Of a stretch of DNA of 64,000 nucleotides, positions 2,171 to 7,706 are shown one piece after another. The stretch lies in contig JAGCDQ010000012.1 of the NCBI GenBank assembly GCA_017651245.1, forward strand, positions 1 through 64,000. Direction: 5' to 3'. The DNA is from Bacteroidaceae bacterium. GTDB taxonomy: Bacteria; Bacteroidota; Bacteroidia; Bacteroidales; Bacteroidaceae. The notes below the pieces were generated by a model. The model made no database searches and was not told the origin of the DNA. It saw only the letters and a list, made by a program, of their open reading frames with translations. The position numbers were made by a program, and so were the translations under genes. Each line of letters begins with the position of its first letter. Positions within the stretch are counted from its first letter, which is position 1.

Positions 2171-2944
2171 TTACTTGATGTTCTTGCGTATCTTTGTCAG
2201 GTACTGCTGCATGTGCTCCTCGTCGCGGGTGTCGATGATCTCGATGATTTCCTTCATCTCCTTGCGGATTTGCTCCACCTGTCCCTTGGTGTAGGGGTTG
2301 AAGAGGATTTCCCTGAGCAGCGTGTCGTCCTCGGAGAGCACGCCCTTGGCTATCTTCATGTGACGCTTGAAGGTGGTGCCGGGCGCATCCTGATGCTTCA
2401 TCACGGCTGCAAAGGCGAACGTGCTGATGAAGGGGATGGAGAGCGAGTATGCCACAGTCTGGTCGTGCTCCTCGAAGGTGTATTCGAAGATGTTGAGACC
2501 CAGACGAGAGTAGAGGTCCTTGAAGAAGCAGCGTCCCATGTAGTCGCCCTCGTTGATGATGATGGCGTTCTCGTCGCTCAGCTTGCCGAGGTTGGCAAAG
2601 GTGGGACCGAACATGGGGTGCGTGCTCACATAGTGGAAGCCGCTTGCCTCGTAGTACTCCTTGAAGCCTGTCTTCACCGACGAGATGTCGGAGAGGATGC
2701 ATGACTTGGGGAGGTGTGGAATCACCTGGTCGAACACTTGCAGAGTGTACTTGAGGCTGACGGCATTGATGACCAGTTCTGGCTCGAAGGCGTCAATCTC
2801 TTCCAACGATGTGAACCGCTGGGTGTTGTACATGAAGCGGAGTCGCTTGGGGTCGATGTCGTACACAGCCACCTCGTGGTCGAACGACAGCAGGTCGGTG
2901 AAGAACGACCCCATCTTGCCTGCGCCTAATATCAGTATCTTCAT
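2171..2944 (-). CDS. tyrA: Prephenate dehydrogenase (tyrosine branch)
   Basis: A 257-residue protein converting prephenate to 4-hydroxyphenylpyruvate with NAD(P)+. The Rossmann motif GAGKMGSFF lies at the very N-terminus, and the family motif HPMFGPTF around residue 110 contributes to the active site. I start at the ATG at 2942-2944 (MKILILGAG) because the alternative TTG 12 nt upstream adds only MKSF. It is the last gene of the pheA - aminotransferase - DAHPS/CM operon, 14 nt after the preceding gene, so tyrosine and phenylalanine branches share one transcript controlled by the leader at 6076-6303. No ACT domain is present, so feedback control by tyrosine at this enzyme is not apparent. Confidence 0.9.
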   Translation of the reverse strand: MKILILGAGKMGSFFTDLLSFDHEVAVYDIDPKRLRFMYNTQRFTSLEEIDAFEPELVINAVSLKYTLQVFDQVIPHLPKSCILSDISSVKTGFKEYYEASGFHYVSTHPMFGPTFANLGKLSDENAIIINEGDYMGRCFFKDLYSRLGLNIFEYTFEEHDQTVAYSLSIPFISTFAFAAVMKHQDAPGTTFKRHMKIAKGVLSEDDTLLREILFNPYTKGQVEQIRKEMKEIIEIIDTRDEEHMQQYLTKIRKNIK

Positions 2945-2958
2945 AAAACTTTTCAATT

Positions 2959-4023
2959 TTATTTATTGATGATTTCAATCTGCTGATGCACACTCTCCTC
3001 GTGGATGCTCTCGAAGACCTTTGCCACGAAGTCGGGGCTCATGCCGCAGAGAGAACCCTGCACGCCACGCTTTGACAGAATCTCGTTGTAGCGCACAGCC
3101 TGAAGCACGGTCATGTTGTGCTCCTTCTTGTAGTGACCAATCTCGCGGCACACTCTCATACGCTTGGCAAGGATGTCCATGAGTTGGTTGTCCAGTTCGT
3201 CAATCTGCTTGCGAAGGCTTGTCAAACCTTCGGTGGTTGTGTGCTCGTCGCGGATGATGAGCAGGGAGAGGATGTAGTCGAGCACCTCAGGAGTGACCTG
3301 CTGCTTGGCATCGCTCCATGCCTTGTCGGGATCGCAATGAGCCTCCACGATGAGTCCGTCGAAACCCAAGTCCATTGACTGCTGACAGAGTGGGGCAATC
3401 AGCTCGCGACGTCCACCGATGTGGGAAGGGTCGCTGATGATGGGGAGGTTTGGAATGCGACGATGCAGCTCGATAGGAATCTGCCACATGGGCGAGTTGC
3501 GGTAAATCTTCTGCTCGTAGCTGGAGAAACCGCGGTGGATGGCACCCATACGCTTCACGCCTGCCTGGTTGATACGCTCCAAAGCACCAATCCACAATTC
3601 GATGTCAGGATTCACAGGGTTCTTCACGAACACTGGCACGTCCACACCTTTCAGCGCATCAGCCAATGCCTGCACCGCGAAGGGGTTGGCAGTCGTGCGG
3701 GCGCCCACCCAGAGGATGTCCATGTCGTATTTCAATGCCAACTCCACGTGCTCAGGCGTTGCCACCTCGGTGGAGATAAGCATGTGCGTCTCTTCCTTCA
3801 CCTGCTTCATCCAAGGCAGCGCCTTCTCTCCGTGACCCTCAAAGCCTCCGGGTTTGGTGCGGGGTTTCCACACACCAGCACGGAAGTTGTGGCAACCTTT
3901 CATCGCCAGTTCACGGGCAGTTTGCATCACTTGCTCCTCAGTCTCAGCGGAGCATGGGCCGGCAATCACGAACGGACGTTCATTGTCGCTCGGCAAATTC
4001 AGGGGTTGTAAATCGAGTTCCAT
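2959..4023 (-). CDS. Bifunctional DAHP synthase / chorismate mutase
   Basis: A 354-residue fusion. The N-terminal part (about 1-260) is a class I DAHP synthase of the AroA-beta/KDO8PS-like type, with GPCSAE near residue 22, KPRTKPGGFEG, and SDPSHIGGRRE; it condenses PEP with erythrose 4-phosphate. The C-terminal part (about 265-350, LTSLRKQIDELDNQLMDILAKR onward) is an AroQ-type chorismate mutase helix bundle with the expected R, K and E residues; in such fusions this domain also acts as the allosteric sensor for prephenate or chorismate. The start ATG at 4021-4023 (MELDLQPL) is preferred over an upstream reading that overlaps the aminotransferase. This one protein feeds carbon into the pathway and commits chorismate to Phe/Tyr, fitting its place between pheA and tyrA. 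Confidence 0.93.
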   Translation of the reverse strand: MELDLQPLNLPSDNERPFVIAGPCSAETEEQVMQTARELAMKGCHNFRAGVWKPRTKPGGFEGHGEKALPWMKQVKEETHMLISTEVATPEHVELALKYDMDILWVGARTTANPFAVQALADALKGVDVPVFVKNPVNPDIELWIGALERINQAGVKRMGAIHRGFSSYEQKIYRNSPMWQIPIELHRRIPNLPIISDPSHIGGRRELIAPLCQQSMDLGFDGLIVEAHCDPDKAWSDAKQQVTPEVLDYILSLLIIRDEHTTTEGLTSLRKQIDELDNQLMDILAKRMRVCREIGHYKKEHNMTVLQAVRYNEILSKRGVQGSLCGMSPDFVAKVFESIHEESVHQQIEIINK

Positions 4024-4048: not shown

Positions 4049-5218
4049 TTAGTTCTTGAATACTTCTTTAATTCTCTGCAAAGCCAATTGCATTTTTTCG
4101 TTTTTGGCACAGAGGCTAATGCGAATGTAGCGCTTGCCGTTGCTGCCGAAGATGAAGCCAGGAGTGATGAACACGCGGGCTTCGTGCAGCACCTTCTCCG
4201 TCAGGTCTTCCACATCGGCGATGCTGTCGGGGATGCGTCCCCAGAGGAACATACCTTGCTGTGTGGGGTCGAACGAGCATCCGAGGGTGGTCATGATCTC
4301 TTCGGCAATCTTGCGACGCGAAGCGTAAGTCTCGATGTTGGCGTTTGTGTGCCAAGCCTCCGAGTTCTCGTAAGCTTGTGCGGCAGCCAACTGCAGCGGA
4401 CGGAATGTGCCGGAATCGATGTTGCTCTTGATTTTCAGAATCCATTGCACGAAGGTGCTGTTCGTTGCCAGCATGCCCACACGCCATCCCGGCATGTTGT
4501 GGCTCTTCGACATAGAGTTGAATTCGATGCAGCAGTCTTTCGCTCCTGGCACTTGCAGGATGCTCAGGTGCTCGTCGCGGTTGAGGATGAAAGAGTAGGG
4601 GTTGTCGTTCACCACCACGATGTCGTGCTTCTTGGCGAATGCCACAATCTTCTCATACAACGCACGAGTGGCACGTCCACCAGTCGGCATGTTGGGATAG
4701 TTCGTCCACATGAGTTTCACGCCGCTCAAGTCCATCGCCTCCAACTGTTCGAAGTCGGGCTGCCAACCGTTGTTCTCCATCAGGTCGTAGTTCACAATCT
4801 GCTGACCGAGAATCTTGCTCAGCGATGTGTAGGTGGGATAGCCTGGATTGGGCACCAACACCTTGTCGCCAGGATTGCAAAGTGCCAATGTCACGTGCAG
4901 GATACCCTCCTTGCTGCCGATGAGTGGCTGAATCTCTGTGGCTGGATCGAGTTCCACGCCATACCAACGCTTGTAGAAATTGGCCATTGCCTTTCTCAGT
5001 TCGGGAATGCCGACTGTGGGCTGGTAGCCGTGCGCATCAGGACGGTGAGCGTTCTCACAGAGCACGTCGATGGTTTCAGGACTTGGTGGCATGTCGGGCG
5101 AACCGATGGCGAGCGAGATGATGTCCTTGCCCTCCGCGTTCAGCTTTGCCACCTCCTTGAGTTTTCTTGAAAAGTAGTATTCGCTTACGAGCGATAATCT
5201 GTCTGTTGGTTGTATCAT
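4049..5218 (-). CDS. Class I/II pyridoxal-phosphate aminotransferase
   Basis: A 389-residue fold-type I aminotransferase. The PLP-lysine lies in FNSMSKSHNMPGWRVGM (about residue 235), with WTNYPNMPTGG and VVVNDNPYSF upstream as the usual cofactor- and substrate-contacting loops, and the C-terminal arginine motif GKRYIRISLC. The family includes aspartate, LL-diaminopimelate and aromatic aminotransferases. In this operon the natural role is transamination of phenylpyruvate and 4-hydroxyphenylpyruvate to Phe and Tyr, or of prephenate to arogenate; sequence alone does not fix the substrate. The gene follows pheA by 5 nt. Confidence 0.87.
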   Translation of the reverse strand: MIQPTDRLSLVSEYYFSRKLKEVAKLNAEGKDIISLAIGSPDMPPSPETIDVLCENAHRPDAHGYQPTVGIPELRKAMANFYKRWYGVELDPATEIQPLIGSKEGILHVTLALCNPGDKVLVPNPGYPTYTSLSKILGQQIVNYDLMENNGWQPDFEQLEAMDLSGVKLMWTNYPNMPTGGRATRALYEKIVAFAKKHDIVVVNDNPYSFILNRDEHLSILQVPGAKDCCIEFNSMSKSHNMPGWRVGMLATNSTFVQWILKIKSNIDSGTFRPLQLAAAQAYENSEAWHTNANIETYASRRKIAEEIMTTLGCSFDPTQQGMFLWGRIPDSIADVEDLTEKVLHEARVFITPGFIFGSNGKRYIRISLCAKNEKMQLALQRIKEVFKN

Positions 5219-5223
5219 ATTTT

Positions 5224-6075
5224 TTAATTTTTCTCGATGGTGCTTTTTCCCTCCACATATTCACCCAACACTTTCAGTTGCTTGGTCAGCGGCCGTACGG
5301 CGTCGATGCTCTGACGGTAACGAGTGTAGTCGTCGTACATCACGTCGATGTAGAACATATATTCCCATTCTCGTCCGATGATGGGCAACGACTGAATCTT
5401 TGTGAGGTTGATCTTGTAGAAAGAGAAGATGCTCAATACTTGGGAGAGAGAGCCCTCGCTGTGGGGAAGGCTGAACACGATGCTTGCCTTGTTCGACTTG
5501 CTGGGCACACTCAATTCCTCTGCACGCCAAGGGTCTGCCACAATCAGGAAACGCGTGAAGTTGTGCTTGTTCGTCTCGATGCCCTCCTGCAGAATCTTCA
5601 TGCCGTATAGTGGGGCTGCGTACTTGGAGCAGATAGCGGCATGACCTCTCAGTCCGTTCTCGCTGATGTTCTTGGCAGAACCCGCCGTGTCGTCGGTCTC
5701 CACAATCTTGAACTGAGGATGCTGCTTCAGGAAGTTTCGGCATTGCATCAGCGCCACAGGGTGAGAGTTCACTTCCGTGATGTCCTCCCAATTGTCCTCG
5801 GGCAGACACATGATGCTGTGTGAGATGCGCAGTTTATGTTCGCCCACAATCTGCATGCCGCTGTCGCGCAACAGTTCGTAGTTGTGCAGCAACGAACCCG
5901 CGATGGTGTTCTCAATCGCCACCATGCCAATCACATTCGAGTCTTTCTTCATCTCCTCGAACACCTCTTCGAACGTGTCGCAGCAGATAAGTTCCACCTC
6001 CTCGCCTTCGAAGTAATAGTGGCTTGCCACGTCGTGGTAACTTCCCACCTCTCCTTGTATTGCAACTCTTTTCAT
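5224..6075 (-). CDS. pheA: Prephenate dehydratase with ACT domain
   Basis: A 283-residue monofunctional prephenate dehydratase producing phenylpyruvate. The catalytic region (about 1-180) starts VAIQGEVGSYHDVA and includes VIGMVAIENTIAGSL and the TDDTAGSAKN motif with the essential TRF (HNFTRFLIV). The ACT domain (about 195-270) carries EGSLSQVLSIF and KIQSLPIIGREWEY in place of the usual GAL(F/V) and ESRP Phe-binding motifs. I infer weaker or absent Phe feedback, which would make the transcription attenuator upstream more important. The ATG at 6073-6075 is chosen because the reading upstream of it runs through the attenuator terminator. It is the first structural gene of the operon. Confidence 0.92.
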   Translation of the reverse strand: MKRVAIQGEVGSYHDVASHYYFEGEEVELICCDTFEEVFEEMKKDSNVIGMVAIENTIAGSLLHNYELLRDSGMQIVGEHKLRISHSIMCLPEDNWEDITEVNSHPVALMQCRNFLKQHPQFKIVETDDTAGSAKNISENGLRGHAAICSKYAAPLYGMKILQEGIETNKHNFTRFLIVADPWRAEELSVPSKSNKASIVFSLPHSEGSLSQVLSIFSFYKINLTKIQSLPIIGREWEYMFYIDVMYDDYTRYRQSIDAVRPLTKQLKVLGEYVEGKSTIEKN

Positions 6076-6111
6076 ATTATATATAATGTATATTTGTTTG
6101 TCGTGCTCACT

Positions 6112-6139
6112 AAAAAGCCCCACTCATCTGAGCGGGGCT
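6112..6139 (-). terminator. Attenuator terminator in the pheA leader
   Basis: On the minus strand AGCCCCGCTC (6139-6130), loop AGAT, GAGTGGGGCT (6125-6116) forms a 10-bp stem with one G-T pair, followed directly by TTTT and A. It lies between the leader peptide gene and pheA (start 6075), so it would stop transcription before the operon. Its 5' arm can instead pair with 6190-6196 (see attenuator entry). Confidence 0.85.
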
Positions 6140-6196
6140 ATATTGTTTCACTATTGTTGTCACATTGTCTCAATTTGAACACATAACTACCCGCTC

Positions 6197-6253
6197 TTAC
6201 TCGTTGCCAAAGTAAAAGTAAAAATAGTAATATGTGTTAAACAATGATTTCAT
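6197..6253 (-). CDS. Aromatic leader peptide of the pheA operon
   Basis: A short frame, ATG at 6251-6253 to TAA at 6197-6199, encodes the 18-residue peptide MKSLFNTYYYFYFYFGNE. Five Tyr and four Phe make up half the residues, eight of them in one unbroken run of aromatic codons (residues 8-15). The ATG is preceded by AAGAAAG and lies about 14 nt downstream of the predicted transcription start. The peptide itself probably has no function; the codons act as the sensor of charged tRNA-Tyr and tRNA-Phe for the attenuator. It overlaps no other convincing coding sequence. Confidence 0.88.
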   Translation of the reverse strand: MKSLFNTYYYFYFYFGNE

Positions 6254-6272
6254 CTTTCTTTCAAATTCGCTG

Positions 6273-6303
6273 CAAAAGTACACACTTTTCCCGAAACCAC
6301 CAA
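6273..6303 (-). promoter_or_regulatory. Promoter of the leader/pheA operon
   Basis: On the minus strand TTG (6303-6301), exactly 20 nt, then TACTTTTG (6280-6273): a near-ideal Bacteroidetes sigma-A promoter. The predicted start of transcription falls near 6267, just before the leader ORF. Confidence 0.8.
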
Positions 6304-6350: not shown

Positions 6351-7706
6351 TCAATCCTTTTCCAACGGACGTCCACGATAAAATTCCAGAATCTTCTGGC
6401 GGAAGAGGAACGTGTAGCGGGATTGTAGGGCTGTGCTTTCCGCTTTCTGGAGAGCCGTCTTGGACTCCTGATATTCCGTGGCTGTAGCCTTGCCGTTCTC
6501 GTATTTCTTCTGCATGAGATTGAAAGCTGTCTGGCTGCTCTCGAGGGCGGCATTGCTGCTGATGCATTGCTTCTGGGCAGCAAGGGCATTGTAGTAGGCC
6601 TGTTGGATTTCCTTGTAGAGTGCCTTCTTGGTCTCCTCGAGCACCATCTGTTGATTGGCTACTTGCAGGCGGGCTTGGCGCACGGCGTTGCGGGTGGCAA
6701 AGCGGTTGAAGATGGGAACGGAGAGGGAAATGCCGAGGGACTGGTTGAAGTTGTCATCCATTTGTTTGCCAAACGAAGCGGCTTGGAAGCCCGAAGTCTT
6801 GTAGTAGTTGCTGCCCATGCCAGCGGAGAAGCGGACGGAAGGGTAGTGTCCAGCCTGTGCGATGCGGACTCCTCTCTCCGCACTCTGCACATTCAGCTTG
6901 CTGGATTGGATTTCCGGCTTGATGTTGAGTGCCTCTGCATAGATGGCATCGGGAACCGTGAGCATGACGGCTGATGGGTCGATGATTTCTGGCTGTTGGA
7001 TGTCGAACTGTTCGGGACTGGGAAGTTCGAGCAACTGAGAGAGGTCGAGCAGGGCAAGCATGCAGGAGTTCTGCTGTTGCGTGAGTGAGAGTTCGTCAGC
7101 TGCCACGTGAGAATTAGCTTCAGCCAGTTCAGTCTCCGACACTTTTCCGTTCTGAAAGAGAATTTCCACACGGCGTGCCTGGGCTTGGCTCAGTTCCCTC
7201 TGTCGTTCTGCCACCGCCACGAGGTCTTTCTGATAGACGGCTTCGAGGTATGCCGACGCCACCTTCATGCTGATGTCCTCCTTCGCTTTCTCGAGGTTGG
7301 CAAGTGCCGCTTCCAGTTCGAGCTTGTTTTGTCGAATCTGATTGGAAATATGTCCGCCCGTGTAAAGAGGCACGTCGGAACCGAGATTGAAGGAAGTGCT
7401 TTGTGTGTTGCGGTTGGCGTAAGTGTTGTTGCTGGTCAATCCGCGTCCGAAGCCCAGACTCTCGCTGGCTGATGCCTGCAAGTTGGGCAGTCGGCTGTTC
7501 TTGGCGGTGCTGAGCGACACCTCCTGGTTCTTCACGCTGATTTCTTGCTTTTTGATGCTGATGTTGTGCTCAATGGCATAGTCGATGCATTCGCGCAAGC
7601 TCCAAGGAGAATGGGAGGATTGAAGTGCTGAAGAATTGAGGTTTTCTTGTGCGTAGGCAAAAGAGACGAAGAAGGCACAAATGATAGAAAAAGAAATCTG
7701 TTTCAT
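6351..7706 (-). CDS. TolC-family outer membrane efflux channel
   Basis: A 451-residue outer-membrane factor with a Sec signal peptide (MKQISFSIICAFFVSFAYAQ, residues 1-20). Two homologous halves of long alpha-helical barrel segments are visible (about 35-230 and 235-440; SLRECIDYAIEHNISIKKQEI and VPDAIYAEALNIKPEIQSSKLNVQSAERGVRIAQA), and the second half contains the transmembrane strand sequence SLGISLSVPIFNRFATRNAVRQA typical of TolC proteins. It should form a trimeric exit duct for the adaptor and MacB-like transporter encoded just upstream; it is the last gene of that operon, 21 nt after the adaptor gene. The substrate is unknown. Confidence 0.9.
   Translation of the reverse strand: MKQISFSIICAFFVSFAYAQENLNSSALQSSHSPWSLRECIDYAIEHNISIKKQEISVKNQEVSLSTAKNSRLPNLQASASESLGFGRGLTSNNTYANRNTQSTSFNLGSDVPLYTGGHISNQIRQNKLELEAALANLEKAKEDISMKVASAYLEAVYQKDLVAVAERQRELSQAQARRVEILFQNGKVSETELAEANSHVAADELSLTQQQNSCMLALLDLSQLLELPSPEQFDIQQPEIIDPSAVMLTVPDAIYAEALNIKPEIQSSKLNVQSAERGVRIAQAGHYPSVRFSAGMGSNYYKTSGFQAASFGKQMDDNFNQSLGISLSVPIFNRFATRNAVRQARLQVANQQMVLEETKKALYKEIQQAYYNALAAQKQCISSNAALESSQTAFNLMQKKYENGKATATEYQESKTALQKAESTALQSRYTFLFRQKILEFYRGRPLEKD

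Follow-up and report, generated by a model that had tools for sequence, protein, structure and literature searches.

The DNA in front of pheA in the window (the whole 64-kb stretch analysed here) very probably encodes a ribosome-mediated leader-peptide transcription attenuator, which reads charged tRNA-Phe and tRNA-Tyr together and stands before a four-gene operon (Table 1). Judged by its sequence, the putative attenuator is complete, with an aromatic-rich short open reading frame (ORF), a terminator before the first gene and a conserved antiterminator mutually exclusive with it. An earlier note on this DNA had described the promoter, the leader, the GAGCGGG segment and the terminator, and each was recovered where it had been placed.

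In the proposed mechanism, plentiful charged tRNAs for both Phe and Tyr would allow the ribosome to arrive at the leader stop and cover GAGCGGG (region 2), whereupon 6139-6130 would pair with 6125-6116 to form the terminator and RNA polymerase would stop before pheA. Under shortage of either Phe or Tyr, the ribosome would stall at one of the nine aromatic codons, occupying region 1 and leaving region 2 free to capture the terminator 5' arm before RNA polymerase has made its 3' counterpart; the four genes of the operon would then be transcribed.

Table 1. Positions of the predicted attenuator elements and the operon genes in the window.
Feature	Position	Strand	Basis or remark
Promoter, -33-type TTG	6301..6303	-	sequence
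Promoter, -7-type TACTTTTG (TANNTTTG)	6273..6280	-	sequence
Leader ORF MKSLFNTYYYFYFYFGNE, ATG 6253 to TAA stop	6197..6253	-	sequence; conservation in 105/106 family upstream regions
Region 1, Tyr/Phe codons, predicted pairing with region 2	6210..6228	-	fold
Region 2, antiterminator 5' strand GAGCGGG, directly 3' of leader stop	6190..6196	-	sequence; covariation
Region 3, terminator 5' arm (CCCGCTC 6136-6130 pairs with region 2)	6130..6139	-	sequence; covariation
Region 4, terminator 3' arm and T-run	6112..6125	-	sequence; covariation
pheA, prephenate dehydratase; C-terminal part aligns to ACT domains	5224..6075	-	ATG at 6075
Class I/II aminotransferase	4049..5218	-	
DAHP synthase (DAHPS)/chorismate mutase (CM) fusion	2959..4023	-	start at internal ATG inferred
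tyrA, prephenate dehydrogenase	2171..2944	-	start at internal ATG inferred

Elements and RNA structure of the leader

Bacteroidetes promoters follow a consensus of the -33/-7 type, and translation initiation in these bacteria is generally regarded as independent of Shine-Dalgarno sequences. In the window, 20 nt separate the TTG at 6303-6301 from TACTTTTG at 6280-6273; among the family leaders, TTG-N17-24-TANNTTTG lies entirely inside the 60 nt 5' of the leader ATG in 81/105, and TANNTTTG occurs at most 60 nt upstream of that ATG in 95/105. The leader MKSLFNTYYYFYFYFGNE has 18 codons, half of them aromatic (5 Tyr and 4 Phe, 9/18); no other ATG ORF of 6-60 codons on either strand of the 64-kb window reaches 8 Phe/Tyr in any 12 residues. 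The terminator hairpin, AGCCCCGCTC-AGAT-GAGTGGGGCT (6139-6116), runs into T 6116-6112, which comprises only 5 T, and ends 40 nt before the pheA ATG (6075). The complementarity claimed in the earlier note between GAGCGGG and part of the terminator 5' arm is borne out, CCCGCTC at 6136-6130 being the exact complement of GAGCGGG at 6196-6190. Furthermore, the leader RNA folds at -44.5 kcal/mol, compared with -26.9 kcal/mol for dinucleotide shuffles (z -6.0; 0/200 as good). Upstream on this strand lies a TolC-type gene (6351-7706) whose end is about 50 nt from the promoter, and read-through from it into the leader is possible.

Covariation and state folds were computed on an alignment of 85 family leaders. 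In the antiterminator (2:3), 94.9% of cells are paired, a value reached by 0/500 shuffles and falling to at most 52.1% when the strands are slid; both-sided changes occur at 5/8 pairs (0/500 shuffles as high), although a single pair accounts for 27/31 of the changed cells, and this helix has no more pair types than the shuffles (500/500 as high). In the terminator (3:4), the corresponding values are 95.4% of cells paired (0/500 shuffles as high) and both-sided changes at 6/10 pairs (1/500 shuffles). Columns 70/157/172, which are common to both helices, read G-C-G in 39/85 and A-U-A in 20/85 leaders, and both pairs are standard in 68/85; compensations confined to single lineages were seen as GAGCAGGA/TCCTGCTT (L026) and GTGAAACGGG/CCCGTTTCAC (L109). 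The predicted terminator and antiterminator are mutually exclusive, and both covary. A 1:2 helix is predicted in 85/85 aligned leaders (at least 5 of 7 region-2 bases; mean z -2.3) and displays no covariation beyond shuffles in this alignment.

If region 1 is masked before region 4 exists, 2:3 forms in 85/85 folds, while masking of region 2 yields the terminator in 84/85. When the leader is fully free before region 4, static folds give 1:2 in 40 and 2:3 in 45 of the 85; the window leader folds into 1:2 when free and into 2:3, at -20.2 kcal/mol, when region 1 is masked. The aligned leaders fall into two layouts, with 44 stopping at region 2 (the window type) and 41 reading through it to a stop 20-45 nt past the region 2 start (for example, L036, L043, L044, L065, L069 and L091), region 2 often being translated as VKRE or VERE. 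Since the read-through leaders stop past region 2, their released state must differ from that of the window: a stop-bound ribosome may leave region 2 uncovered, and a re-formed 1:2 helix would have to cover it. The mean 1:2 energy is equal in the two groups (-10.7 each).

At least 5 T in 7 were found at the called end of 85/105 family hairpins, and the remaining 20 include some miscalled ends. The hairpin search picked an incorrect hairpin for L083 and set some ends beyond the T-run. In eight genus members (L014, L017 and L056-L061), the hairpin is kept 16-19 nt before the pheA start and the T-run is replaced by TTATACA-like DNA; control in these members may work differently.

Distribution of the leader and its operon

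pheA is present in 43/45 genus genomes, from which 42 upstream regions were read (one pheA match being partial). In a sample of 251 family genomes, 220 have a PheA match, and 65 further upstream regions were drawn from this set (17 returned as loci and 48 hand-picked down the ranked list). One of the resulting 107 genus and family regions ends 37 nt upstream of pheA, leaving 106 usable, and a leader was found in 105 of these, every one with both Phe and Tyr; L106 is the sole region without it. Among named genomes, the best 80 loci among the matches listed were taken, of which 78 have at least 230 nt upstream; 77 of the 78 carry the leader, including Phocaeicola vulgatus ATCC 8482, Bacteroides xylanisolvens XB1A and Paraprevotella clara, the sole exception (L161) being a linked operon. 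The four-gene operon proposed earlier behind the leader is well conserved, with the order pheA-aminotransferase-DAHPS/CM-tyrA kept in 62/62 named loci (those with more than 4.6 kb after pheA).

Outside the family, 96 upstream regions were assembled. Of these, 67 came from the 85 order-level genomes in which a match was found and 29 from the best-matching of 127 phylum-level genomes; 93 were callable for context (L216, L221 and L231 were not). In these other families of the order, the class and the phylum, a leader with at least 6 Phe/Tyr per 12 residues precedes pheA in 88/93 callable loci. The five callable loci without a leader comprise three linked operons (L205, L279 and L285) and two lone pheA genes (L209 and L212). 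Related genomes thereby provide the support that had been anticipated for an attenuator: the aromatic leader ORF is kept, and the GAGCGGG/CCCGCTC pairing is both kept and covarying.

A covariance model was derived from 85 of the 105 family leaders. In the genome to which the window belongs, it recovers a single real copy (131 bits); a second match there (C25, 25.5 bits) was rejected as an aromatic leader. At E ≤0.01, the model matches 103/121 family genomes, a count that includes its own source genomes and some weakest matches that are not leaders. Weak second matches in G053, G160 and G146, together with a match in G088, were likewise rejected as aromatic leaders. In 18 genomes with a divergent PheA, no leader scoring at least 7 was found within 500 nt upstream of that gene, with the starts in L366, L368, L372 and L382 doubtful or belonging to another gene and the searched stretches possibly misplaced. 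In most of these genomes the divergent PheA is apparently a chorismate mutase-prephenate dehydratase fusion, and no aminotransferase was detected in the 18 at E 1e-60 by a search run without a positive control.

The PheA of the window is identical to that of the MAG RUG11335. The suggestion that its ACT domain has degenerate Phe-binding motifs holds in part: at the ESRP motif, PheA reads QSLP, invariant in 11/11 aligned family members, whereas its GSLS differs little from the GSLF of the solved enzyme 2qmx.

Leader codons, operon content and competing explanations

For comparison of codons with operon content, a locus was called linked if at least one other operon gene was found downstream of pheA (many loci being seen for only about 1.5 kb), and a pheA was called lone if none of the other operon genes lay within at least 5 kb. 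All 84 linked leaders outside the family have at least one Tyr in their best 12 residues, and 83 have at least two; the single leader with one Tyr (L255) is accompanied by a second leader with two. The 4/4 lone-pheA leaders, from four different families, read 7F/0Y, 9F/0Y, 6F/1Y and 6F/0Y. The difference in Tyr between linked and lone leaders has a Fisher p of 2e-6, not corrected for kinship. On the PheA tree, with the addition of G149 (a family member that came from the covariance model search, outside the unbiased sample), the predicted direction was obtained in a mean of 4.9 of 5 independent pairs and the opposite never; the sign test gave a median p of 0.0625 (range 0.0625-0.125 over random pairings), five pairs being too few to reach 0.05.

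In 5/6 lone-pheA genomes (G292, G302, G404, G366 and G375), a split aminotransferase-DAHPS-tyrA or similar operon has its own leader, with 3-4 Phe and 4-6 Tyr (manual count) and a hairpin with T-run after each; the sixth, G312, gave no DAHPS/CM match at E 1e-50. In G149, MYNTSASFFSNFFFVFTWRR precedes pheA and MQQLNAYVYSYYYFTLTR, with five Tyr and one Phe, precedes aminotransferase-DAHPS-tyrA about 7 kb away, both on AAGCGGGA / TCCCGCTT scaffolds. The leader before the split aminotransferase-DAHPS operon of G095 is mixed, not Tyr-only. A GAGCGGG/AAGCGGG-type region 2 and a terminator accompany the Tyr-free lone-pheA leader of L199 and likewise the pheA leader of G149. In the lone-pheA leaders L207 and L241, only 5-nt antiterminator matches were found; in L207, manual reading points to an ACGGGG stretch within the ORF as a possible partner of the terminator arm.

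Leaders also occur before other operons. In three genomes of genus g24 (L414-L416), all with a PheA of the divergent type, a Phe/Tyr/Trp leader (MKAINAYYFYFWFTRQYAG and kin), weakly matched by the model, precedes a DAHPS-type operon, which in the one read gene by gene begins with DAHPS and a prephenate-dehydrogenase-like gene, continues with aroB and an aroA-like gene and ends in a CM-prephenate dehydratase fusion (the aroA-like gene and the fusion named by manual reading). Separately, the leader at L417 (G157 C114:30570-30437), MKFNVTSYYYYYYRT, is Tyr-only and has a terminator as well as GTGGGGC/GCCCCAC pairing. It is followed by phenylacetate-CoA-ligase-like, small, transporter-like and indolepyruvate-ferredoxin-oxidoreductase-like genes, all below curated cut-offs or named by manual reading, and may control the making of Tyr from aryl acids.

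Two ORFs with at least 7 Phe/Tyr per 12 were found in 12/96 regions outside the family. One of these, L266, was set aside, its second ORF being far upstream and looking like chance, which leaves 11 tandem leaders (L194, L197, L198, L202, L214, L216, L242, L252, L253, L255 and L257); as 40/96 regions are shorter than 550 nt, further tandem copies may be missed. Manual reading of five tandem regions in full revealed, in four, a CGGG-type region 2 in leader 1 and a GGTGG-type in leader 2, a difference that should limit cross-pairing between the two. The hairpins called for the second leaders of L298 and L299 are weak (-3.9 and -0.1), with a longer bulged stem and T-run visible in the sequence, and the first tandem leader of L351 has only a weak antiterminator match.

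Taken across these loci, leader codons tend to track operon content, with Phe and Tyr where the operon is linked and Phe only, or nearly so, where pheA is alone, and this match supports dual Phe/Tyr sensing over Tyr codons kept for RNA pairing. Running against this trend are the mixed leader of G095 and the leaderless linked operons L205, L279, L285 and L161. The dual sensing put forward in the earlier note gains comparative support from the lone-pheA leaders. We lean towards a wider reading, in which a phylum-wide, evolvable leader code operates: the leader would act as an OR gate for uncharged tRNA-Phe/tRNA-Tyr, and wherever the genes have been separated or rearranged, exchange of codons on a mostly unaltered scaffold would set the gate anew (Phe before a lone pheA; Tyr-rich before aminotransferase-DAHPS-tyrA; Phe, Tyr and Trp before a shikimate-pathway operon; Tyr before an operon with an indolepyruvate-oxidoreductase-like gene), with two gates stacked in some lineages.

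An attenuator that senses only tRNA-Phe, with Tyr codons kept because TAC/TAT suits RNA pairing or as neutral aromatic filler, is favoured by the predicted 1:2 helix, in which aromatic codons are region 2's partners, and it has a precedent in Corynebacterium AroR, which reads Phe-Tyr-Phe and for which Tyr availability is irrelevant according to the available part of a review (PMC11802643). We nevertheless regard it as unlikely: the lone-pheA leaders of L199 and G149 drop Tyr yet keep region 2 and the terminator, so the RNA scaffold needs no Tyr codons, and the sister leader of G149 is dominated by Tyr. Joint reading of tRNA-Phe and tRNA-Tyr is preferred; for the window, leader translation, stalling, termination and relief by Tyr shortage alone are predictions from sequence and comparison, and in view of the Corynebacterium leader reported to ignore Tyr, sensing of Tyr is likewise putative.

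Action of the hairpin and leader at translation or via Rho, instead of by intrinsic termination, would suit the eight genus members whose hairpin stands close to pheA without a T-run, as well as the short T-run of the window, but is highly unlikely in view of the T-runs at most family hairpins (85/105) and of the 40 nt between the window hairpin and the pheA ATG. Finally, the arrangement could be the product of chance, with a T-rich intergenic stretch translating into Phe/Tyr (T-rich DNA does favour these codons) beside an unrelated terminator of the upstream TolC-type gene, which ends at 6351 on the same strand. Conservation in the phylum sample, covariation and the uniqueness of the leader in 64 kb contradict this explanation and make it scarcely credible.

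Comparison with known systems

Leader attenuation of pheA is classical in enteric bacteria, where the attenuator employs mutually exclusive hairpins, and the Bacteroid-trp RNA has a role in trp attenuation. As far as the accessible part of a 2010 survey goes, leader-peptide systems were known only from Proteobacteria and Actinobacteria (ermC aside), with Firmicutes then added (PMC2965389), and the available text of a B. thetaiotaomicron transcriptome study mentions leader-like small ORFs in general (PMC7366714). In the open-licence literature, no description of a Phe/Tyr leader before a Bacteroidetes pheA was recognised, bar the structured 5' element of PMC9723704, and the leader's range, codon re-tuning and tandem copies were likewise not found described. 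Bacteroidetes, common gut commensals included, gain here a specific and conserved candidate RNA switch for Phe/Tyr synthesis that no Rfam family matched in this analysis. As it occurs naturally in Phe-only, Tyr-rich and mixed forms whose RNA scaffolds are similar, the ability of a single leader peptide to sense two tRNAs can be put to a clean test.

The nearest parallel is the enteric pheL attenuator (Rfam Phe_leader RF01859), likewise a leader peptide upstream of pheA, which is read by Phe-tRNA availability (PMC11802643, as seen in part). The window leader scores 22.4 bits against that model, well below the gathering threshold of 55, and differs from pheL in mixing Phe and Tyr, in phylum and in sequence, while its operon also holds the aminotransferase, DAHPS/CM and tyrA. 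Bacteroid-trp RNA (RF01692), a candidate cis-regulatory RNA of Bacteroidetes in the accessible part of its source (PMC2864571), is absent among the 10 Rfam matches of the window leader up to E 10, and no T-box or riboswitch is among its Rfam matches (E up to 10, gathering threshold). Closer in phylogeny, excerpts of a Flavobacterium psychrophilum study report that pheA is preceded by a structured 5' element, which recurs in further Flavobacteriaceae genera and has no Rfam hits, and mention clues for leader-peptide attenuation of amino-acid operons (PMC9723704). That element is perhaps the same as the one in the window, but the excerpts describe it without a leader sequence, Phe/Tyr reading or a wider survey (PMC9723704).

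Mixed and serial leaders also have counterparts elsewhere. The Salmonella mgtCBR tandem attenuators have two short ORFs in one leader region (PMC3641672, available in part); the operon is a different one, and in some Bacteroidetes relatives it is two aromatic leaders that stand in series. In Corynebacterium glutamicum, aroR is likewise a mixed Phe/Tyr leader upstream of a DAHPS operon, with Phe-Tyr-Phe before aroF and a reported response to Phe and not to Tyr (PMC11802643, a review); in the part available, three aromatic residues are named there, whereas the leader in the window, from a different phylum, has nine.
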